Positions 33,620 through 48,212 of a stretch of 64,000 nucleotides of DNA are shown one piece after another. Where the stretch lies: assembly GCF_026625785.1 (NCBI RefSeq), contig NZ_CP113063.1, positions 5,022,001 through 5,086,000 on the forward strand, in the 5' to 3' direction. How positions within the stretch are numbered: position 1 is the stretch's first letter; each line of letters begins with the position of its first letter. Source of the stretch: Gordonia sp. SL306 (GTDB lineage: Bacteria; Actinomycetota; Actinomycetes; Mycobacteriales; Mycobacteriaceae). The notes beneath the pieces were generated by a model. It was not told where the DNA came from, did no database searches, and saw nothing but the letters and a program-made list of their open reading frames with translations. Both the position numbers and the translations under genes were made by a program.

Positions 33620-35251
33620 ATGGCGTGCGTGGCGGACGTCGTCGCCCAGACCCTCGTCGAACTGGGCGTCGGGACCTGCTTCGGGGTGGTCGGTAGCGGC
33701 AACTTCGTCCTCACCAACGCCCTTCGGGCACGCGGTGTGCCCTTCGTGGCGACGCGTCACGAAGGGGGCGCTGCGTCGATGGCCGACGGGTACGGTCGCG
33801 TTGCCGATGTGCCGGCGCTGGTGTCGGTGCACCAGGGCTGCGGACTGACGAACGCGATGACCGGCATCGCCGAGGCGGCCAAGAGTCGCACCCCGATGCT
33901 GGTGTTGGCCGCGGACTCCGCGGCCGGCGCGGTGCTCTCGAACTTCAACATCGATCAGGACGCTCTGGCCCGTAGTGTCGGTGCCGTCGCCGACCGTGTC
34001 CACGGGCCCGGTTCCGCCGTTGCCGACGTGACTCGCGCATATCGCACTGCCGTGCAGGGCAGGCGTACCGTCGTCCTGAGTCTGCCGCTCGACATCCAGG
34101 CCGCCGAGCTCGCCGCGCCGGATGCTGCCGCCACCCTGCTCACCTGCGATCCGGTTCGGCCGTCCGCGGATTCCGTTGCGGCACTGCAGGAGTTGATCGA
34201 GGCGGCGGAGCGGCCGGTGTTCGTGGCCGGACGTGGGGGTCGTGCCGCCGGGGCCCAGATCGCCGAGCTCGCCGCGCGTGCCGGTGCGCTCGTCGCGACA
34301 TCTGCGGTCGCGAACGGGTTGTTCCGTGGCGACCACTTCGATCTCGGAATCTCCGGTGGCTTCTCCACCCCACTCACCGCTGAGCTGATCCGTTCCGCCG
34401 ACCTGATCGTGGGGTGGGGTTGTGCGCTCAACATGTGGACGATGCGGCACGGGACACTCATCGGCGCACAGACTGCCGTCGTGCAGGTCGACGACGATCA
34501 GAGCGCCCTCGGGGCCCATCGCCCGATCACCATGGGAATCCATGGGGACTGCGGCGCGACCGCGGCCGATCTGATCGATGCGATCGTGGAGGAGCGCACC
34601 GGATACCGGACCGTGGAGGTGGCGCGACGCCTGGCGGCCGGGCGACGCTGGAACGACGTGACCACGACGGACATCTCGACGGCCGACCGCATCGATCCGC
34701 GGGTGTTCAGCGCCGTACTCGATGGCGCACTGCCGTCCGAGCGCGTCGTCGCGGTCGACTCCGGCAACTTCATGGGTTATCCCAGTGCCTATCTACGGGT
34801 TCCCGACGAGAACGGTTTCGTGTTCACCCAGGCCTTCCAGTCCATCGGACTCGGCCTGTCCAGCGGGATCGGCGCCATGCTCGCGCGACCCGACCGGCTC
34901 GCGGTGGTCGCCGCAGGCGACGGGGGATTCCTGATGGGCGTCGCGGAGTTGGAGACGGCTGTCCGGCTGGGTCGGCCGATGCTGATCGCCGTGTACGACG
35001 ATGCCGCATACGGCGCCGAGGTGCACCACTTCGGCCCCGACACCGACCTCGGTTCGGTCACCTTCCCGGACACCGACATCGCCGCGCTGGCCCGCGGTTT
35101 CGGCGCTGCCGCGGTCACGGTCAGAAGCCGCGCCGACATGGAACACGTTGTGACGTGGCTCGATTCCCCCTCAGGGGTGCTGGTCGTCGATGTGAAGATC
35201 GCTTCCGACGGCGGGGCCTGGTGGCTGGCCGAAGCCTTCACAGGACATTGA
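33620..35251 (+). CDS. Thiamine-pyrophosphate-dependent enzyme (acetolactate synthase/decarboxylase-like)
   Basis: The product is 543 aa with the three-domain layout of the POX/AHAS family. The N-terminal PYR domain has the activating Glu (RHEGGAASMADGYGR, residue ~48). The central Rossmann-like domain spans ~190-330. The C-terminal PP domain has AAGDGGFLMGVAELETAV followed by YDDAAYGAE, where the usual NN is replaced by DD. It should decarboxylate a 2-oxo acid. It is the last gene of the 32463-35251 unit. Confidence 0.85.
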   Translation: MACVADVVAQTLVELGVGTCFGVVGSGNFVLTNALRARGVPFVATRHEGGAASMADGYGRVADVPALVSVHQGCGLTNAMTGIAEAAKSRTPMLVLAADSAAGAVLSNFNIDQDALARSVGAVADRVHGPGSAVADVTRAYRTAVQGRRTVVLSLPLDIQAAELAAPDAAATLLTCDPVRPSADSVAALQELIEAAERPVFVAGRGGRAAGAQIAELAARAGALVATSAVANGLFRGDHFDLGISGGFSTPLTAELIRSADLIVGWGCALNMWTMRHGTLIGAQTAVVQVDDDQSALGAHRPITMGIHGDCGATAADLIDAIVEERTGYRTVEVARRLAAGRRWNDVTTTDISTADRIDPRVFSAVLDGALPSERVVAVDSGNFMGYPSAYLRVPDENGFVFTQAFQSIGLGLSSGIGAMLARPDRLAVVAAGDGGFLMGVAELETAVRLGRPMLIAVYDDAAYGAEVHHFGPDTDLGSVTFPDTDIAALARGFGAAAVTVRSRADMEHVVTWLDSPSGVLVVDVKIASDGGAWWLAEAFTGH

Positions 35252-38675: not shown

Positions 38676-39944
38676 TCAACGACCACCCTTGAGAGCGCGT
38701 CGCGGGCGCAGTTCGGAGCGAAGCCACGCATAGACACCGTCGTGGTTCAACAGCGTGAAATGGTGCGCGCTCCCGACATGGAAGCCGTCCGATGGCCGCA
38801 AACCGATTGTGCGGTGACGACTCTGTCCGCGCCCGCTCTCGGCCAGCACCAGACCATCGCCCAGCAGTCGCCCCAGCGGGTGATCGGCGCGTCGGGTCAC
38901 CGACGCGGTCGCGAACAGATGACGGACGTTCGGCGGCAGCGGAGCGTCGTCGGGGAGCGGCTGTCGGAGCACATCGCGCTCGACGTCACGCCACCCCTCT
39001 TCGGTGAGCGTGCCGTGAAAGAGGTCCCGGACTCCCGCACTGCGCCGCCGGAGCAGGTTGCCGAACGGATTCGTCGCGGGAAACCCGCCGAGCGCGGCGG
39101 TGGCCGCATGCACGCCTTTCGCCATCGGTGCGCCGAGATGCGGCGTACCCAGATACACCGTATGTCTCAGCAGGGCGGCCCAATACAGGTCTTCGCGGAC
39201 GGCTCGCTCGCAGGCACTCCGGATGACGAGCCCACCCATGGAATGGCCGATCAACGACAGGTCGGTCACCGGCACCGGCCACAGCAGGACGAGAGCCGAC
39301 AGGACATCGGCGAGTTCACGGCCGTTGTCGCTCACGTGGCGACCGGAGTTGTAGCGGATCCGGATCTCGGTGCTGGCGATGTCGTCGCTGAGTCGTCGGC
39401 CGTAGGTGGGGCGGCCGCCGATCTCCCAGGCGTACTCGGATTCCATCAGGCCGTGGAGGAACACCGTGAGGTGGCTGCCGGCATCGGGAAACACCGCTCG
39501 CAGGGCTTCCGCGGTGGGCGCCACCTCCCGGCCGTCGACACGAATCGTCATCGCGGCGGCCAATGGGGAAGTGTCCTGCGACAATTCGTCGCCGATGAGG
39601 CCGTTGAGGATGCCGAGCGAGATTGCTCCGCGGGAGGTCTCAGAGGGGGCGCGGCCGGCCACCGGAACCGCCGCGACCATGCCGGCCAGTCTCGCGACGA
39701 GATCGGCGGAACCTCCGGCGGTGGTGTAGGCCGCCAGCGCGAGCGTGTTGTGGACCATGCGGACCGGGTCGACTCGGCGTCCGAACGCCATGCGTAACCC
39801 GCCGAACACGCCGTCGGCGATGGATGTATGGACCTTGGCGACGCCGGTGGTCGCCCGGCGGAGTTCGGTCCCCGCGAGCACGGCGAGGGCGTCGAGTTCC
39901 TCCTGGCGACAGTCGACGGAAGCGGTCACGGATGGAGTGTACAT
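38676..39944 (-). CDS. Lipase/esterase-like alpha/beta hydrolase
   Basis: The product is 422 aa. The first ~150 residues are helical and not a signal peptide. The hydrolase domain has the oxyanion HG at 164-165 (VFLHGLMESEYAW), the nucleophile Ser235 in LIGHSMGGLVIRSA, a LGTPHLGAP stretch typical of PGAP1/lipase-like enzymes, and a late His (AHHFTLLNHDGV, ~400). It starts 38 bp after the LuxR-type regulator gene on the same strand, so it is probably the fourth gene of that operon. A role in releasing fatty acids from lipids for the dioxygenase is inferred. Confidence 0.8.
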   Translation of the reverse strand: MYTPSVTASVDCRQEELDALAVLAGTELRRATTGVAKVHTSIADGVFGGLRMAFGRRVDPVRMVHNTLALAAYTTAGGSADLVARLAGMVAAVPVAGRAPSETSRGAISLGILNGLIGDELSQDTSPLAAAMTIRVDGREVAPTAEALRAVFPDAGSHLTVFLHGLMESEYAWEIGGRPTYGRRLSDDIASTEIRIRYNSGRHVSDNGRELADVLSALVLLWPVPVTDLSLIGHSMGGLVIRSACERAVREDLYWAALLRHTVYLGTPHLGAPMAKGVHAATAALGGFPATNPFGNLLRRRSAGVRDLFHGTLTEEGWRDVERDVLRQPLPDDAPLPPNVRHLFATASVTRRADHPLGRLLGDGLVLAESGRGQSRHRTIGLRPSDGFHVGSAHHFTLLNHDGVYAWLRSELRPRRALKGGR

Positions 39945-39982
39945 CTGTGCACCGAAGAGCCGTGGGACGCGAGTCCTCGCTG

Positions 39983-42664
39983 CTATTGGTCCCAGACGAT
40001 CTTGGCCAGTGCTTCCCGATCGGCGACGTCGAGCTTGATGGACGCACGATAGATGTGTCCCTCGACGGTCCGCACGGACACCGTGAGGCGTTCGGCGATC
40101 TCGCGGTTGGTCAGTCCCTGGGCCACCAATGCCGTGATCTCCCGTTCCCGCGCGGTGACCGGCAAGGGTCGGGCGGCCAGACGGATCGCAGGGCTGGTCG
40201 CGCCGTCGCAGATCTTGGAGAGGCGCAGGGCCCGCGCGCTCGACTCCGCGCGCTTCCCGCGACGCCCGGCGTGCTCGTGCAAAGCCACCGCCTGGGCCGC
40301 GGCATCGGCTGCCGACAGGAGCAGTCCGGCATGTTCGAAATCCCGACTCACATCGTCGAGTGCCGCCGCGTCCGCCTCGGCGACCGCCATTGCGTGCCGT
40401 GCGTACAGGCGCGCCACCGCTCCTTGCAGCGCGGGCGCGACGGCGGCGAGGCGGTCGGCGACGGTTCGGTCGCCGAATCTCGCGGCGTGATGCAAGGCCT
40501 CAGCTTCGAGAGCGAACTGCCCACTGTCGTGGGCGACATCGGCCGCCGAACGCGCGAGCTCGACCGCCGAGCGGTCACTCCCTCCTGCGGCGGCAACCCA
40601 GGCGCGGGCGATGATGCGTTGCGGTTCGTGCAGCGCCACATGCGATCCGACGTGCTCCTCGGCGTCGCGGAGCACACGCTCGGCCTCTGCCACATGGTTG
40701 AGGGCCGCGTAGGCCCGGGCCAGCAGCAGTCGCGCGGGAAGCCGCCAGGGCAGCGACGTCTCCGCGTTGAGAGCGGCGAGTGCCTGCTCGATCGCCGAGA
40801 TCGCCTCGCGGAAGCATCCGCGGTAGGTCGCCACCAGACCGGACATGATCTTGGCGATGGCCCATCCGAGGAACTGTCCCGACGACGAGAACTCGGTGTA
40901 GCCGGCCACCCGCTGTTCGGCTGTGACGAGGTCGCCGACCATCGTCAGCGCGAGCGCGTCGCAGTACCGCACCATGACGCGGATCATCCCGTCGGTGGCC
41001 TTCTGCTCGGCTCGACACCGCTCCGCGATCGGTTCGTAGTCGTGACCGCGACCGGCGACCGGCATGGCCAGCCCGGCGGCGAACGCTGCGAAGTCGATGG
41101 CCTGCTTCGGTACGTCCGGCTGGGCCAGCACCCGTTCGGCCTCGTCGATGCCCTCAGCGATCCGGTTCTCGTGCACAGCCATCGCGGCGCCTGCGGCGTC
41201 CACGACCAACATGATCGCGGGATAGTCGACCTTGTCTCGCATCAGATCGAGGAGCCGATGGCTCTGCGTGACGTCGCCGATCGACCAGAACAACAGACTC
41301 ATGCGGGGCACGCCCCACTGCACGAGTTGCAGCTCGTCCAGATCATCGGGGTCGAAGCGGGCCAGGATGTCGTCGGCCTCCATCGGACGGCCCTGCCAGA
41401 GCAGTGCCCGCGACAGGAGCTCGCCTGCAGCGAGTCCGCCGTCACGGTCGAATGCCGCTCGGGCCAGACGTTCTCCCAGCGGGAGATTGGCAAGGAAGAG
41501 CGCATCCTTGGCAGCCGAGATCAGCAGACCGGCGTCGATCTCCTGGTCACTGTCGACGCACAGCCGGGCCAGCCGAATTCGGTCGGCGGCAGATGCTACC
41601 TCGCGATCGCGTAGTTGAGAGACGATGCGGGAGCGCAGCTTCCGGCCGGCCATCGTGCCGATACGCCGACGGATGACGTCGCCGTAGAGCGGGTGGACGA
41701 ACCGGACGTTGGTGGTCGCGCCGTCGCGCGTGACCCGGATCAGATTCTGCACCTCGGCCGCATCCAGGGCATCGGCGCCGACCAGCTCGATAAGAGTGTC
41801 GATGTCGAGGGGTTCGCACAGCGCCAGCAACTTGAGCGCCTCCATCACCTGCTCACCCGCGCGATCGAGACGATCGTCGAGCAGCGCGACGAGGCCCGAC
41901 GGCACCGCGGTCGGGCCGCGGAGCTGCCACACCCCGTTGGTCTCCGACAAGGTACCCGCGTCCACAGCGCCTTCGACCATGTTCCGCAGGAACAACGGGT
42001 TACCGCCGGACGACTCCCAGATCACGTCCGCACTCAGGCCTTCGAGGGTCCCGCCGAGCACACGTTCGACCAGGGTGGTGCAGTCGCCTTTGCCGAGCGG
42101 CTGCAGTTCGATGCGCGTCAGATAGCCGTCCTTCCACAACGACGTCACCGCATCGGGAACCGGTTCGCCGGTCCGCACCGTCGCGACGATGCGGGCCGAC
42201 CGCTCGATGGCGATCTGATGGAGCAGTGTGGCCGAGAGCTGGTCGAGCAGATGCGCATCGTCGACCCCGACGATGGTGTCGGGCTCGGCCAGCAGGGCTT
42301 CCCGCGCCGACACGAGTGCCGCGATCGGGTCACGCGATGCGATCGGCTGCACCCAGGGCGCGAACGCACCGAGCGGAATCGCGTGCGACGATTCCGTGCA
42401 GGCCGCCCATTGGACGGGCACACCGAGTGCGCCGGCGACGGTCCGCGCCAACGTCGTCTTACCCACGCCCGCGGCGCCCACGAGCACCACACCGCGGCCA
42501 TCAGAACTCGTCAGCGCGGTTCGAATGGCATGGTCTTCGGCCGGTCGACCGAGCAGCTGCCAGCGGCCTCCCATGGGGGCCGAGTATAGATCGGACGACC
42601 GGTCAGGTGTGACTGTTCGGCGCAGTCCCTCGTCCTCGTCTGGCATACCGGTGAGGATGCTCAT
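39983..42664 (-). CDS. Large ATP-binding LuxR-family regulator (LAL type)
   Basis: The product is 893 aa. Walker A is GAAGVGKT (63-70) in VVLVGAAGVGKTTLARTVA. Walker B is TIVGVDDAHLLDQL near 130. A long TPR-like helical middle section (~300-800) follows. The C-terminal NarL/LuxR HTH is LTAREREITALVAQGLTNRE, continuing to SVRTVEGHIYRASIKLDV. LAL proteins are one-component activators that usually bind a small ligand through the TPR part. Its ATG overlaps the stop of the catalase-fold gene (ATGA), so it is co-translated with the enzymes it probably controls. Confidence 0.9.
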   Translation of the reverse strand: MSILTGMPDEDEGLRRTVTPDRSSDLYSAPMGGRWQLLGRPAEDHAIRTALTSSDGRGVVLVGAAGVGKTTLARTVAGALGVPVQWAACTESSHAIPLGAFAPWVQPIASRDPIAALVSAREALLAEPDTIVGVDDAHLLDQLSATLLHQIAIERSARIVATVRTGEPVPDAVTSLWKDGYLTRIELQPLGKGDCTTLVERVLGGTLEGLSADVIWESSGGNPLFLRNMVEGAVDAGTLSETNGVWQLRGPTAVPSGLVALLDDRLDRAGEQVMEALKLLALCEPLDIDTLIELVGADALDAAEVQNLIRVTRDGATTNVRFVHPLYGDVIRRRIGTMAGRKLRSRIVSQLRDREVASAADRIRLARLCVDSDQEIDAGLLISAAKDALFLANLPLGERLARAAFDRDGGLAAGELLSRALLWQGRPMEADDILARFDPDDLDELQLVQWGVPRMSLLFWSIGDVTQSHRLLDLMRDKVDYPAIMLVVDAAGAAMAVHENRIAEGIDEAERVLAQPDVPKQAIDFAAFAAGLAMPVAGRGHDYEPIAERCRAEQKATDGMIRVMVRYCDALALTMVGDLVTAEQRVAGYTEFSSSGQFLGWAIAKIMSGLVATYRGCFREAISAIEQALAALNAETSLPWRLPARLLLARAYAALNHVAEAERVLRDAEEHVGSHVALHEPQRIIARAWVAAAGGSDRSAVELARSAADVAHDSGQFALEAEALHHAARFGDRTVADRLAAVAPALQGAVARLYARHAMAVAEADAAALDDVSRDFEHAGLLLSAADAAAQAVALHEHAGRRGKRAESSARALRLSKICDGATSPAIRLAARPLPVTAREREITALVAQGLTNREIAERLTVSVRTVEGHIYRASIKLDVADREALAKIVWDQ

Positions 42665-43794
42665 TCGGGCAGATCGCCGGGGCCGCCGGGTTCGCTCATC
42701 GGCGCGTTGTTGACCTGGTGGCGAAACTGGCTCGAGGCGTCATACACCTTCCGCTTCAGCCGGTTGATCGAGCCCAGCGGCCGATGCGCGTCGAGCCCGC
42801 GCCACGAGTTGAACGACAACACGTCATCGCCGTAGGCCCGCCGCTCGGGCGTGTAGGGGTCCTGCCGGCCGAATCGGACGGTCGCGACCGTCCGGTGTGG
42901 CGACACCTCCTCCGGCCAGTCGAAGGTCGCATCCTCGATCCATCGGCGGTCACTGCTCGCACAGAGTTGGACCCGCAGCTCGTATTCGGCGCTGTGGCAG
43001 GAGAAGAAGTCGACCACCATGTCCTGGAACGCGTTGACCCCGGTGCCGTCGGCCACGGGCACCCCTGCCAGCGCACGTACCTCCGGCGATGACGGGACGA
43101 ACGCCATCCGGGCCACGTACTCGCCGTAGCGCAAGGGAGCCGACGAATAGAACGTGTCGCCCAGGATGTGGGTGTTCGGCCGGACGAAGACCGCAAGACT
43201 CTCCGGCAGCGGACGGCCGATGGGGCGCAGGACGCGCTTGTCGATACCTGCCAGGAGTTCGCTGCCGATCTTGAGTGCGGGATCCGAGAGACGGGCCAGT
43301 GCCCAGGCGGTGGGCATACCCCGTTTGTAGTACGCCTCGGCGTCGGCGAACAGGAAGTCCCGGTGCGTCACCATGATGAGGTCCTGAGTCGTCGCGGTGT
43401 CGTCGGGCAGTGCGCGTTCTCCCTCCACCCCGAGGACCTTGATGCCGAGACCGCGCACACCTCGCATCTGATCACTGCGAATGGCACCAGACGTGCTGGA
43501 CAACCTCGTGATGATGTCGAAACGTCGACCGCCATGCGCGAAGAGCCCCTGGGCCAGTTCATCGTCGAGGTCGTCGTGGACCTCGAGTGTCCCGCGCAGG
43601 ATTCCGTGGCTCTTGGCATGGGCATCACGCAAACCGCGTTTGGTCTTGCGATATGCGCGTTCGTTGTTGCCTCGCAGGCTGCCCACGATCTTGTCGATGT
43701 AGGCGTCCTCGTCGGGTTTCGGGCGCTCCAGGTCGGGGTCGTAGCGCACGTAGGTCGTCGTGCTGGTCATCCTGCTGGTGTCCTCTCGGGTCAT
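42661..43794 (-). CDS. Catalase-fold haem protein (y4iL/allene-oxide-synthase-like)
   Basis: The product is 377 aa, much shorter than true catalases (~500). It has the distal His in RDAHAKSHGILRGTLEV (H59, equivalent to the catalase HAKG His), TRLSSTSGAIRSDQMRGVRG with GLGIKVLGVEG, and LIMVTHRDFLFADAEAYYK. The RxFSYxD motif with the proximal Tyr of classical catalases is not recognisable; the region reads LSFNSWRGLDAHRPLGSINR. Relatives in this catalase-like group include haem proteins that process fatty-acid hydroperoxides. Start and stop overlap the neighbours by 4 bp each. Confidence 0.78.
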   Translation of the reverse strand: MTREDTSRMTSTTTYVRYDPDLERPKPDEDAYIDKIVGSLRGNNERAYRKTKRGLRDAHAKSHGILRGTLEVHDDLDDELAQGLFAHGGRRFDIITRLSSTSGAIRSDQMRGVRGLGIKVLGVEGERALPDDTATTQDLIMVTHRDFLFADAEAYYKRGMPTAWALARLSDPALKIGSELLAGIDKRVLRPIGRPLPESLAVFVRPNTHILGDTFYSSAPLRYGEYVARMAFVPSSPEVRALAGVPVADGTGVNAFQDMVVDFFSCHSAEYELRVQLCASSDRRWIEDATFDWPEEVSPHRTVATVRFGRQDPYTPERRAYGDDVLSFNSWRGLDAHRPLGSINRLKRKVYDASSQFRHQVNNAPMSEPGGPGDLPE

Positions 43795-45665
43795 CGGCCC
43801 GGCCAGGGTGCGAACGGATTGTCGACACCCGCGAGAACCGGTGCCAGGGTGGGGAAGTGGCGCAGCAAGACCGACCGCATCGAATTGTCGCGCACCCAGG
43901 CCATCCCCACCTCGGTGTAGATCTCCTGACGAAAGTCGGTGGTGAAGAAGCGGTCGCTGGACAACCGCCGGGACGCCATCAGCACGAACACCCGAAAGGC
44001 GGTGTCACTGAAGCCGAATCCGGGGGGCTTGCGTTCCGCGTGCAGGCCGACCATCAGGTCGAGGTTGTCGATGTCACCATAGATGTCCTCGAGTTCTTCG
44101 GCCCACTCGGCGTTGTCGGTCAGAGCGGCGAACGAGGCGACGCGAGGGAGACGGAACAGACGGCGGAACTCGTTGTAGCGAGGCACCCCTCGTTCTCGAT
44201 CCCGCAGGATGTCGACAGTCGCCAGGTCGATCGGCCGTCCATCCGGCCGGGCGAGCTCCTGCAGCGCGGCAGGGTAGTTGTGCAGGGTGAGTTCACCGGC
44301 TTTCGCACGGCCGAAGGAATAGAAGAGATCCGGCATCGAGGTCTCGGCGAGACGATCGCGGACATGATCCGCGAGCAGTTCGTCCAACGTGTGAACCGCT
44401 TGCGGGCGGTTGCCGTCGATGTCGCGGATCTTCAGCTCGTCGGGGAGCAGGGAGTGCATGCGGTAGACCGCGACGAACTCCTCGGTCAACGAGTACGGGA
44501 CGCCGTGGTGGTTGGTCGTGCTGCCGGGGATACCGCACAACACCTCGCTCTCGGCCACCCTGCCGAACCTGCGGGCGAACCGCTCGCCGAGCAGTCCGAA
44601 CCAGTTGCCGCGCATCGCGGAAACCGTCGTCGGGTGCGCGATGATCGCGGGAGTCCAGTCGATGGTGTGGATCTTGGCCATCAGGGCCGTGTTGACCAGC
44701 CGCGCGGTGTCGTAGAGCTGCTGATCGGTCATGAACGGATAGGCAGCAGCCAGCCGCCGGCAGATCGCGTTGTGTTCGCGCAGGAACAACGAATGCAGCA
44801 GGGCCAGGCCGACCCAGAAGTTCGCCACCGGCCCGTTGGGATCGAGCAGGGTGTCGGCCTCGGCGGGCGGGAGTCCGTTCTCCGCCAGGAGGATCTGCCC
44901 CCGATCGCCTGATCGGATCGCGTCCGCATAATCCTGTTGGCTTCCGTAGATTTGCGAGCCGTCCCACCAGTGGGTGTCGCGGTTCGCAAAGGTCGGTGGG
45001 GCATCTGGGTCCGCACCGGGGGCGAGCGTCGACCGATGGACGCTCATGGGACGGTGCTCTTCGGGCCAGTCATCCGAGGCGGGCAGGGGGATCTCCCGGC
45101 AGGGCGTCTGCTCGTCGTCCGGGTGACTGAACCAGTCGTGCACCTCGAACTGAATCCATGCCGCGGCAAGGAGGTTCAGCGAATCAACCGGCCGGAACTC
45201 GTCGCGGGTGAACAGGCGCTGACTGATCTCCCGCGGATTCGGGTCCAGGAGTCGCGCGGGGTCGGGAGACGAGTTCGCCGGGGGCACGTTGCGCCCGAAT
45301 CTGCTCGACGCCGCCCCCATCAGCGGTGCGTCGAGGTCGTTGTGGGTCCCGCCGGGCAGGCGGGCGCGCAGCGCTCGGGAATCCCAGTGCGGTTGCCGCT
45401 CGTCGGGATCACGGCCGCTGTCATACAGGTTCAGGGCACGCAGTTGGCTGCGGAGGCCGACGAGGACGGCCAGGCCGACCGGGCGCCACAGGGTCGGCCA
45501 TCCGGCTGCTCGATCCACCACTTCGGCGGCACGGGCGAGGTTTCGGGTGATCGGACCTCGCCGGTCCGGTGACGGTTCTCGATCTGCACCACTCGACGCC
45601 ATCAACAGCGCCAACCACACCCACCGGGGCACGCCCACCTCCGCTTCGCGTCGCGACCACAACAT
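43791..45665 (-). CDS. Animal-type haem peroxidase, alpha-dioxygenase/cyclooxygenase-like
   Basis: The product is 624 aa. The distal haem His is H176 in AAAWIQFEVHDWFSHPDD. The proximal region EEFVAVYRMHSLLPDEL has Tyr401 three residues before His404. That Y-x-x-H spacing is the one in cyclooxygenase (Tyr385/His388) and plant alpha-dioxygenase, and it is absent in plain peroxidases such as myeloperoxidase. WWDGSQIYGS and LREHNAICRRL are family landmarks. The first ~70 residues are hydrophobic-helical (WVWLALLMASSG) and may anchor it. Fatty-acid oxygenation is therefore the best prediction. It is the first gene of the cluster. Confidence 0.85.
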   Translation of the reverse strand: MLWSRREAEVGVPRWVWLALLMASSGADREPSPDRRGPITRNLARAAEVVDRAAGWPTLWRPVGLAVLVGLRSQLRALNLYDSGRDPDERQPHWDSRALRARLPGGTHNDLDAPLMGAASSRFGRNVPPANSSPDPARLLDPNPREISQRLFTRDEFRPVDSLNLLAAAWIQFEVHDWFSHPDDEQTPCREIPLPASDDWPEEHRPMSVHRSTLAPGADPDAPPTFANRDTHWWDGSQIYGSQQDYADAIRSGDRGQILLAENGLPPAEADTLLDPNGPVANFWVGLALLHSLFLREHNAICRRLAAAYPFMTDQQLYDTARLVNTALMAKIHTIDWTPAIIAHPTTVSAMRGNWFGLLGERFARRFGRVAESEVLCGIPGSTTNHHGVPYSLTEEFVAVYRMHSLLPDELKIRDIDGNRPQAVHTLDELLADHVRDRLAETSMPDLFYSFGRAKAGELTLHNYPAALQELARPDGRPIDLATVDILRDRERGVPRYNEFRRLFRLPRVASFAALTDNAEWAEELEDIYGDIDNLDLMVGLHAERKPPGFGFSDTAFRVFVLMASRRLSSDRFFTTDFRQEIYTEVGMAWVRDNSMRSVLLRHFPTLAPVLAGVDNPFAPWPGR

Positions 45666-45682
45666 CCGGACACCCGGAATGT
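45661..45682. promoter_or_regulatory. Near-palindrome at the start of the dioxygenase operon
   Basis: AACATCCGG and CCGGAATGTT pair around ACAC with one bulged base, overlapping the ATG of the dioxygenase gene. Position suggests a repressor or ribosome-access site. Confidence 0.3.
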
Positions 45683-45912
45683 TCTGCGACCAGTATGTGG
45701 TCCGATCACGAACTCGGCATGAGTAATCGACTACTCGTTGCCGACGACAGGGCGACCCGGGGGAGCGGCGCGACCACTGAGGAGGCGGGCGTTTCGGTAC
45801 CTGAAATCAGGTAGTCGCCTACTCGCGTCGGCCGCGATCAGGGCAGACAGGATGGTCACGTGCCCGGGTCGATCATCACCCGTCGCGCTTCTGGCAGAGA
45901 AAGGCGGCAGGT
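45666..45912. other. Divergent intergenic region (247 bp) of the dioxygenase operon
   Basis: No gene seen. It contains a near-palindrome at 45661-45682, GACCA-GTATG-TGGTC around 45690, the perfect 7-2-7 palindrome at 45797, and GTAG-TCGC-CTAC right after it. Confidence 0.6.
45797..45812. promoter_or_regulatory. Perfect 7-2-7 palindrome, candidate NarL/LuxR-type operator
   Basis: TACCTGA-AA-TCAGGTA is a perfect 16-bp palindrome in the control region between the dioxygenase operon and the CYTH-like gene. NarL-family HTH proteins bind inverted heptamers with this 7-2-7 spacing, and the operon encodes such an HTH. Confidence 0.55.
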
Positions 45913-46647
45913 GTGATCACACCGATCGACATCAAGGTGAACCTCGACGACCCATCTCCGGCACTATCCGCGCTGGACCTGACACATCAACAGGGCCGGC
46001 ATCGCGAGATCTGGTTCGCCGAGGTCCGCCCAGGGGTCACAGAGTCGCCGTTTCCGCTGCTCAGCAACCATCTGATCATCCGTATCCGCAGCGGCGATGT
46101 CGATGACCTGACCGTGAAGCTACGGCCGTGCCGTCAGGATCAGCTCGCCGAACCCTGGACCCACCCCTTCCACACCGACGCGGTGAGCTACCGCCTGGGC
46201 TGGGACTGGAGCGGAACACACCGCGTGCTCACGGCATCAGCGGTCTGCGGACGGTCGCCGGGATCACTCGCCGCCGAGATGGCCGACGGAACGGACCCGT
46301 TGTCGGTGCTCGACCCTGCACAGCGTCAATTCGTCGTCACCTGTACACCCGTCGGGGTGCCCATCGACCATCTACGGGCGTTGGGGCCGATCTCATCGAC
46401 CACCTGGTCGGACATCACCATCGACCAATGCACGGTGGACATCGAGAGGTGGACCGTCGGCGACGTCGATCTCCTCGAACTGTGCGAACAGATCCATCCG
46501 CACGACGGCGAGAGCCTCGACGAGTTCGAGGCCCGCGCCGCCGCACGACAACAGTCCCTGGAACGTTCGATCCGCAGACGCGGCCTTGAGCCTGCCGACA
46601 CCGGGGCGAAGACCGAACGAGTGCTCACCAGCCTCACTCGTGCGTGA
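45913..46647 (+). CDS. CYTH-like domain hypothetical protein
   Basis: The product is 244 aa with a GTG start. The pattern REIWFAEVRPG, LIIRIRSGDVDDLTVKLRPC and a later WTVGDVDLLELCEQIHPHD resembles the β-strand/charge pattern of CYTH (adenylate cyclase IV/thiamine triphosphatase) proteins. The exact ExExK motif is not evident, so activity is uncertain. A helical C-terminus (EFEARAAARQQSLERSIRRR) follows. It is divergent from the dioxygenase operon and convergent with the catalase gene. Confidence 0.5.
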   Translation: MITPIDIKVNLDDPSPALSALDLTHQQGRHREIWFAEVRPGVTESPFPLLSNHLIIRIRSGDVDDLTVKLRPCRQDQLAEPWTHPFHTDAVSYRLGWDWSGTHRVLTASAVCGRSPGSLAAEMADGTDPLSVLDPAQRQFVVTCTPVGVPIDHLRALGPISSTTWSDITIDQCTVDIERWTVGDVDLLELCEQIHPHDGESLDEFEARAAARQQSLERSIRRRGLEPADTGAKTERVLTSLTRA

Positions 46648-46682: not shown

Positions 46683-48212
46683 TCAGCCCGCGCGCACCTT
46701 CTCCTGCATCGACGTGCGCGCCGGATTGCCCTGCTCATCGACCTTCGGGTCCGGTTCGTCGCGCTTCTCGGTCACGCCCGACTTGATCCGCGCACCGATG
46801 TCGGGGTCGACCCGCGACCAGTACTCGAACGCCCGTTCCAAGACCGGTTCGGAGACGCCGTTGAGCAGGTGCCCGACCACGTTGTCGACGAACCGCTCGC
46901 GGGCAGCGTCGTCGAACACCTCACGGACCATCGTGCCCGCCTGACCCCAGTCGTCGTCCTCCGGGTGGTCGACATATGCACTCCGGACGATCTCGCCGTC
47001 GGCGGCCCACTGGGGTTCTGGTTGCCCCGGATAGACGGCGGCCGGGCCACCCTTGGAATTCGGTGCGTAGACGGGGTCGGTCACCGGGCTGATCCGCATG
47101 TGGCCGTCCTTGGTGTAACTGTGCACAGCATTGCGCGGAGCGTTGACCGGGATCTCCTTGTAATTGCCACCCAACCGCGCCCGGTGGGCATCTGCATAGG
47201 AGAACACCCGTCCGAGCAGCATCCGGTCCGGGCTGAACCCGATACCGGGGACCACGTTGTTGGGTTCGAACGCCGCCTGCTCGATCTGCGCATGATTGTC
47301 GGTCGGATTGGTGTGCAGGGTCATCTTCCCGACCTCGTGCAGCGGATAGTCGCCGTGCGGCCACACCTTGGTCAGGTCGAACGGATTGAACCGATAACCG
47401 ACCGCGTCGTCATACGGCATGAGTTGCACCTTGAGCGTCCAGCTCGGGTGATTGCCGCCGGCGATCGACTCGAAGAGGTCGCGGGTGTGGAAATCGGTGT
47501 CGGCTGCCGCCATCTGGTCGGCTTCGTGCTGCGTGAAGCACTCGACGCCCTGATCGGTGATGAAGTGGTATTTCACCCAATGTTTGACGCCCTGGGCGTT
47601 GACCCAGAGATATGTGTGCGAGGTGTAGCCGTTCATGTGCCGCCACGTCTTCGGGATTCCGCGATCGCCCATCAGCCAGGTGACCTGGTGGGCGCTCTCC
47701 GGTGAGAGGGTCCAGAAGTCCCACTGCATGTCGTGGTCACGAAGGTTGTTGTCGGCACGCCGTTTCTGCGAACGGATGAAGTGCTGGAACTTCATCGGGT
47801 CCTTGACGAAGAAGACCGGCGTGTTGTTGCCGACCATGTCGTAGATGCCCTCGTCCGTATAGAACTTCAGGGCGAACCCACGGGGATCGCGCCAGGTGTC
47901 CGGGCTGCCCCGCTCACCGGCCACGGTGGAGAACCGCGCCATCATCTCCGTCTTGACGCCCGGCTGGAACAACGCGGCACTCGTGAACTCCGAGACATCC
48001 TCGGTGGTCTCGAACGTGCCGAAGGCGCCACTACCCTTGGCATGTGGCTGCCGCTCCGGGATTCGCTCGCGGTTGAACTGCGCCATCTGCTCGATCAGGT
48101 AGTGATCGTGCAAGACGATGGGACCGCCTGCCCCGACGGTGAGCGAATGCTCATCGCTCCCGGCCGGCGCCCCCGAATCACGCGTCGTGTACACGGAATT
48201 TTTGTCGGACAT
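46683..48212 (-). CDS. katA: Monofunctional haem catalase (KatA type)
   Basis: The product is 509 aa. The distal His57 is in [19 protein letters not shown]. The distal Asn lies in the [16 protein letters not shown] stretch. The proximal Tyr339 and Arg335 are in [20 protein letters not shown]. Length is that of small-subunit (clade 3) catalases. It decomposes H2O2 in the cytoplasm. GGAGG lies 4-5 nt before the ATG. It is separate from the catalase-fold protein at 42661 and is not part of that operon. Confidence 0.95.

Follow-up and report, generated by a model that had tools for sequence, protein, structure and literature searches.

We analysed a 64,000-nt stretch of the 5.36-Mb genome of Gordonia sp. 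SL306 (the window) and found in it three adjoining genes encoding an alpha-dioxygenase-like protein (DOX), a catalase-fold protein (CATL) and a large ATP-binding regulator of the LuxR family (LAL). The best explanation of this locus, to which we assign a probability of roughly 60%, is a two-enzyme module for fatty-acid oxidation with its own LAL switch. The proposal builds on what the sequence shows: the families of the proteins, their active-site residues, the linkage of the genes, fusions of DOX and CATL in both orders and a conserved palindrome. An initial annotation had described four minus-strand genes, the first three joined by ATGA overlaps, and all of its coordinates were reproduced: overlaps of four bases join DOX to CATL and CATL to LAL, and 38 bp separate LAL from the gene of a lipase-like hydrolase. 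The three genes and two candidate operators are as follows.

43791..45665, minus strand: DOX, probable alpha-dioxygenase, 624 aa; PF03098 (E = 5.8e-108), homology to alpha-dioxygenase structures, residue conservation
42661..43794, minus strand: CATL, predicted catalase-fold protein, 377 aa; distal His59 and Arg358, with Tyr351 as candidate proximal haem ligand
39983..42664, minus strand: LAL regulator, 893 aa; PF13191 and PF00196 over cut-off; accompanies CATL in 51 of 51 loci
45721..45736, no strand: candidate LAL operator 1, GAGTAATCGACTACTC, 55 bp ahead of the DOX start codon
45809..45824, no strand: candidate operator 2, two mismatches, between DOX and a divergent gene

A scan of named genomes yielded 90 candidates, the best 80 of which represent 79 distinct DOX loci; neighbour families were built by crude picking of open reading frames and clustering, and neighbour counts are approximate. 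CATL adjoins or is fused to DOX in 51 of the 79 loci, and LAL is present in every one of the 51, which come from Gordonia, Nocardia, Millisia, Mycobacterium, Mycolicibacterium, Mycolicibacter and Mycobacteroides; CATL and LAL are divergent from DOX in five of these loci (L028, L038, L042, L045, L053). A quick unrooted tree, built from 93 DOX rows, places the window together with the 51 CATL-linked loci on a single branch (support 99), from which all unlinked rows are absent. Among 397 genomes of the host's order, CATL was detected in at least 24, DOX in 39 and both in 20 (P = 2.5e-19, hypergeometric, kinship not corrected); the figure of 24 is a lower bound, as it leaves out five of the six genomes that carry CATL-DOX frames. 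Where a genome of the order has a DOX at 60% identity or more, CATL lies within about 0.1 kb or is fused (11 of 11 genomes). The neighbourhood of DOX, CATL and LAL is beyond chance. The comparison of gene order in relatives, which the initial annotation had suggested, places these three genes together in Gordonia and other genera; three members of its four-gene unit thus stand, in an order conserved across Gordonia, Nocardia, Millisia and the mycobacterial genera, and the lipase drops out (see below).

CATL occurs with no DOX at all in four of the 24 genomes (G205, G243, G354, G356); G216 has CATL and DOX on separate contigs. Two mycobacterial loci with DOX at 48-49% identity have no close CATL (L078, L083), and a Luteitalea locus (L080) has a distant CATL (26%) about 4 kb from DOX. 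In Gordonia tangerina (L073), DOX and the adjoining LAL each match in two pieces, as if frame-shifted.

A single open frame encodes DOX followed by CATL in 11 of the 51 linked loci, and likewise in four of the 11 genomes of the order whose DOX reaches at least 60% identity. The fusion of Mycolicibacter kumamotonensis has 958 aa, its domains bridged by about a dozen residues, and on the DOX tree the fusion label requires three changes, at least two of them forced by starred branches. The reverse order, CATL-DOX, was found in six genomes of the order (frames of 933-1004 aa), the DOX domains forming their own branch far from the window DOX, and in two of 396 phylum genomes (60-61% identity over nearly full length). 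It also occurs on plasmids of Rhizobium phaseoli (942 aa) and Phyllobacterium (949 aa), with profile-comparison E-values of 4e-22 and 2e-20, and of R. jaguaris (950-residue open frame, BLASTP E = 2e-16). Fusions in both orders are strong evidence that DOX and CATL act together, and we regard a functional coupling of the two as almost certain.

The plasmid survey covered seven of the 19 records with alpha-dioxygenase and six of the 125 with CATL. CATL-DOX fusion was established in L116, L117 and L120, DOX is of ordinary length in L115, L118 and L119, and the coding sequence of L121 is close to that of L116 in length, the one property compared. The plasmid CATL-DOX proteins are annotated merely as 'peroxidase family protein'. 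Long frames had raised the suspicion of a CATL-LAL fusion in L014 and L055, which a frame check found in none of the 51 loci; the 1035-aa frame of L100 gave no match to an N-terminal catalase domain, and the long frame of L112 has no similarity to DOX and is probably a chance open frame.

Homology and conserved residues indicate with high probability that DOX is an alpha-dioxygenase (alpha-DOX). The animal haem peroxidase family (An_peroxidase) is the sole Pfam family listed for it, and the closest solved structures are rice alpha-DOX 4kvj (E = 7e-117, DOX residues 51-621) and Arabidopsis alpha-DOX 4hhr (E = 1.6e-113). The initial annotation had left the choice between cyclooxygenase (COX) and alpha-DOX open; we rule out the former, as the top COX-2 chain matches far more weakly (E = 1.1e-16) and An_peroxidase is the only Pfam domain. 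COX enzymes carry an EGF-like domain. Tyr401, His404 and His176, already proposed there as the catalytic set, align with the catalytic Tyr of plant alpha-DOX (a position that is Phe in rice chain 4kvl) and with its proximal and distal haem His, respectively. His333, Thr338 and Arg566/567 align with residues that we take to form the alpha-DOX substrate site. Two alpha-DOX residues, His-311 and Arg-559, are named in a title within a reference list, and with a rice-chain numbering offset of 3, deduced from the alignment, they match His333 and Arg567. Tyr401 and His404 are conserved in 92 of 92 other DOX rows, His333 and Thr338 in 90, Arg566 and Arg567 in 89 and His176 in 84; near whole-length homology, the catalytic Tyr, both haem His and the substrate His and Arg are all present in the window protein. 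Two distant peroxidases (L103, L105) share the equivalents of Tyr401 and His404 and miss all other residues checked. We found no further DOX copy in the Gordonia sp. SL306 genome.

CATL scores 23.3 bits against the Pfam catalase family (PF00199), beneath the gathering cut-off of 25, and is shorter than catalases and distant from them in sequence. A structural model, computed from the window and 43 of 52 CATL loci, predicts a catalase fold. Its top Foldseek match is a catalase-related protein of Mycobacterium avium subsp. paratuberculosis (3e4w/3e4y, about 22% identity), and in the structural comparison coral allene oxide synthase (AOS) and the AOS-lipoxygenase (LOX) fusion stand in the first rows, tied with catalases. 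Haem catalases bear the signature RxxxY(x)6R around the proximal Tyr. A profile alignment of CATL with 3e4w covers most of the domain and sets Tyr351 on the Tyr of the matching (K/R)xxxY(x)6R motif, Lys347 replacing the first Arg in CATL; all 75 family rows have Tyr351 and Arg358, and 70 of them keep the distal His, so that both the distal His and the putative proximal Tyr of a catalase have sequence counterparts. As hhalign aligns only the N-terminal part of CATL with the window's own catalase, the placement of Tyr351 rests on 3e4w and on family conservation. It is very likely, judging by alignment, that CATL binds haem through Tyr351. The initial annotation was right that CATL is short, keeps the HAK motif (His59) and has no literal RxFSYxD string; its claim that the ligand Tyr is missing is rejected on the same alignment. 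In one actinobacterial clade the distal His of DOX is replaced by Arg (IRDWF; L104, L106, L107, L108, L102, L074), and in L104, L106, L107 and L108 the distal His of the nearby CATL is replaced by Asn, both partners being altered together.

The regulator has an N-terminal AAA_16 ATPase (36-131) and a C-terminal LuxR helix-turn-helix (GerE, 837-888), which with a length of about 900 aa are the features of LAL regulators. A second LAL in the genome (G000:C1:1879763-1882351) is 50% identical to it. Upstream of DOX lies a 16-base palindrome, GAGTA-N6-TACTC. Exact copies of it occur in 31 of the 51 loci, and 41 have it if a single mismatch is tolerated; the remaining sequence of these loci would lead one to expect 0.003 and 0.025 per 460 bp, respectively. 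Allowing two mismatches, 42 loci carry it and 25 have at least two copies (background 0.049 per 330 bp). The pattern was derived from the same loci in which it was counted, and these counts are descriptive. Of 20 further genomes, 16 carry the unit, and 10 of these have the exact motif ahead of DOX; some genomes have up to 11 copies elsewhere. Upstream of the genes at CATL-LAL loci without DOX, a related site, AGGTAGTCGACTACCT, occurs in L109 and two-mismatch sites in L110, L111 and L113. The palindrome is a likely operator before DOX, and we have good confidence that LAL would act there in the window and in loci of its kind; its conservation fits a LAL that acts on its own operon. No sigma-70-type promoter or terminator was found in 45560-45960, and no Rfam family reached the gathering threshold within the window. 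A PADLOC search for anti-phage systems gave weak matches for LAL alone and none for the six other proteins submitted.

From these observations we infer the enzymatic activities of the two proteins, the haem of CATL, their product, the binding of LAL to the palindrome and the biological role of the unit. A tyrosyl radical at Tyr401 of DOX would take the alpha-hydrogen from a free fatty acid, and addition of O2 would give a 2-hydroperoxy fatty acid. Such a hydroperoxide loses CO2 to form the shorter aldehyde with no enzyme needed; a dedicated partner would thus most likely divert or use the hydroperoxide, and CATL would handle it ahead of its decay to the one-carbon-shorter aldehyde. That CATL acts on the hydroperoxide made by DOX is, we think, fairly probable. 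It would most likely yield a 2-hydroxy acid (as a peroxidase) or a 2-oxo acid (as a dehydratase), although any single named product is doubtful. LAL would bind the palindromes before DOX and control its own operon, probably on a cue from substrate or product. Alpha-DOX is described as an alpha-oxidation enzyme leading to fatty aldehydes (PMC8720084).

The surroundings of the unit include four further genes.

38676..39944, minus strand: serine hydrolase (lipase-like), 422 aa, GHSMGG, DUF676/PGAP1-like; neighbour, membership not conserved
45913..46647, plus strand: divergent gene, 244 aa, predicted CYTH/triphosphate-tunnel-like fold; tie to the unit uncertain
46683-48212: full-length catalase gene (Pfam), about 1 kb from the unit
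33620-35251: thiamine diphosphate (ThDP) enzyme gene, downstream of the unit

The lipase was rejected as a fourth operon member. It stands directly beside the unit in one of the 51 linked loci (L010) and about 1.6 kb beyond it in one more (L029); a homologue is present in 29 of 36 other genomes of the genus, only six of which have CATL; among these, three have it 6-7 kb from CATL, one has it directly behind LAL, and two have it elsewhere. Other hydrolases recur, namely a weak alpha/beta-hydrolase match and an S8 peptidase in 21 of the 51 loci each, both together in 20, and patatin-type proteins in four. Patatins are also found near DOX in Phyllobacterium, Calothrix and other actinobacteria; patatin-type phospholipases or other hydrolases are thus found near some alpha-DOX genes, background frequency aside. 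The divergent gene adjoins DOX in 15 of the 51 loci (Gordonia, Nocardia, Millisia). It has no significant Pfam match; an AF2 model, computed from the window and 14 of the 15 loci, has a pLDDT of 88.4 and matches 6yp4 in Foldseek (E = 1.4e-7). It is unrelated to the small gene between CATL and a DyP-type peroxidase in L089, which had been considered as kin. Five Nocardia loci (L015, L024, L039, L055, L056) have, near the unit, a gene that groups with a protein of L075 in which a caspase domain was identified.

A ThDP enzyme gene lies immediately upstream of CATL-DOX in four loci (L094, L095, L117, L120), and in L086 one is about 2 kb away from a lone DOX, the five proteins being 55-78% identical; the stretches covered around other CATL-DOX loci (L096-L099, L116) contain none. 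A 2-hydroxy and a 2-oxo acid would both suit a ThDP lyase or decarboxylase, and such a neighbour would fit chemistry on either acid. In G. hankookensis a ThDP gene (L010:14996-16624) is convergent with and adjoins the lipase, and in the window ArsR-phosphatase and permease genes are among those separating the ThDP gene from the lipase.

CATL might be a mere peroxide guard that removes H2O2, or sets the peroxide level governing activation and inactivation of alpha-DOX, and leaves the fatty-acid hydroperoxide untouched. Its predicted catalase fold, distal His and candidate ligand Tyr would suit such a task, as would the DyP-type peroxidases adjoining some of its relatives; however, a full catalase gene is only 1 kb away, the fusions imply one-to-one pairing, and CATL is neither as long as a catalase nor close to one in sequence. 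We consider this explanation unlikely. It is also improbable that both proteins serve chiefly as peroxidases on damaged lipids, in a defence against fatty-acid or lipid peroxides with LAL as a stress regulator. This idea agrees with the DyP-type and other peroxidases that adjoin relatives of CATL, with the truncated globin found near CATL in one case and with the peroxidase activity that PMC9305512 ascribes to many alpha-DOXs, but the residues for alpha-DOX oxygenation and substrate binding, superfluous in a plain peroxidase, are kept in nearly all rows. A third alternative makes CATL a coral-like AOS or hydroperoxide lyase (HPL) and lets the lipase complete a four-gene oxylipin operon. For an allene oxide to form, the hydroperoxide must neighbour a double bond, but that made by alpha-DOX is a 2-hydroperoxide and would not be allylic; an allene oxide, the type of product to which the initial annotation had pointed, is thus unlikely. 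The place of coral AOS and AOS-LOX in the model comparison and the fusion of coral catalase-related domains to lipoxygenase, mentioned in PMC5617202, point towards that scheme, but with a lipase unlinked to the unit we hold it to be very improbable.

Several observations weigh against a dedicated two-enzyme module with its own switch. No close CATL accompanies DOX in 28 of the 79 loci, a few short contigs among them, which suggests that DOX can probably function alone. CATL and LAL occur with no adjacent DOX in genomes of the same family (L109, L110, L111, L113); a truncated globin gene follows LAL in L109, and genes of similar size follow it in the other three. CATL also stands beside the distant animal-type peroxidases of L103 and L105 (24-25% identity to DOX, alpha-DOX substrate residues absent), its relatives adjoin DyP-type peroxidases in L088, L089 and L092 (Deinococcus, Paracoccus and Agrobacterium plasmids), and a DyP-type peroxidase is likewise beside CATL in the actinobacterial DOX cluster L106; CATL may thus serve other peroxides. 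The distal His has been lost from DOX and CATL alike in one clade. According to PMC9305512, rice alpha-DOX is without peroxidase activity and many alpha-DOXs have it, with hydroxy acids as side-products; the hydroxy-acid step does not strictly call for a partner, then, an argument that cuts both ways. The ThDP proteins match acetolactate synthases, decarboxylases and 2-hydroxyacyl-CoA lyases, which leaves their type unspecific, and the window's ThDP gene is only distantly related to the fusion-linked ones. The exact palindrome is a single copy in the genome (45721-45736), but a reversed control also occurs once there; the conserved place of the palindrome, not its rarity, is thus the evidence for it. 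It is absent from nine of the 51 loci, seven of which are among the 11 DOX-CATL fusion loci, and this speaks against one switch common to all. The two-enzyme module with a LAL switch nevertheless remains our preferred explanation. The wider reading, taken jointly, that the unit of Gordonia, Nocardia and mycobacteria is an oxylipin circuit that senses its product and has a LAL with few targets beyond its own operon, is tentative and would surprise us if borne out in full.

Plant and cyanobacterial alpha-DOXs (rice 4kvj, Arabidopsis 4hhr, CalDOX/LepDOX) resemble the Gordonia protein in near whole-length homology, the catalytic Tyr, the two haem His and the substrate His, Thr and Arg, but in the loci described here DOX has a LAL and a catalase-fold protein as companions, the latter either encoded separately or joined to DOX in one protein. 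Plant alpha-DOXs are stand-alone proteins, no close CATL was found in cyanobacterial DOX loci (L069-L071), and the stretch L119 holds no annotated catalase. The M. avium subsp. paratuberculosis protein, CATL's best Foldseek match, has the same Tyr motif but low identity, and reportedly shows peroxidase activity. Coral AOS-LOX and HPL-LOX (1u5u, 3dy5) also fuse a catalase-related domain to an oxygenase, there a lipoxygenase; here, in contrast, the oxygenase would be an alpha-DOX, with another fold and another product, both fusion orders occur, and no allylic hydroperoxide is expected. Fungal DOX-CYP proteins (linoleate diol synthases) join a dioxygenase of animal-peroxidase type to a second haem enzyme (PMC13049297, PMC4420034), but that enzyme is a cytochrome P450 rather than a catalase fold and the DOX is of another subfamily.

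Actinobacterial alpha-DOX members already stand in a published tree, and in the portion of that source consulted (PMC8720084) bacterial alpha-DOX is represented by this tree and two characterised cyanobacterial enzymes, with no partner or purpose encountered. Among the papers listed by a search of the open-access literature, which left subscription papers and preprints outside its scope, we recognised none on an alpha-DOX/catalase pair or fusion. The component families are already known, and it is the pairing and the circuit that were not found in the literature searched. The fusions in both orders name a partner for bacterial alpha-DOX and make the question testable with one purified protein pair, and CATL-DOX on plasmids of nodule bacteria points to possible oxylipin chemistry in symbiosis. 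If our proposal is true, coral AOS-LOX and fungal DOX-P450 would be joined by a further natural combination of a fatty-acid dioxygenase and a second haem enzyme, this one built on alpha-DOX as oxygenase.

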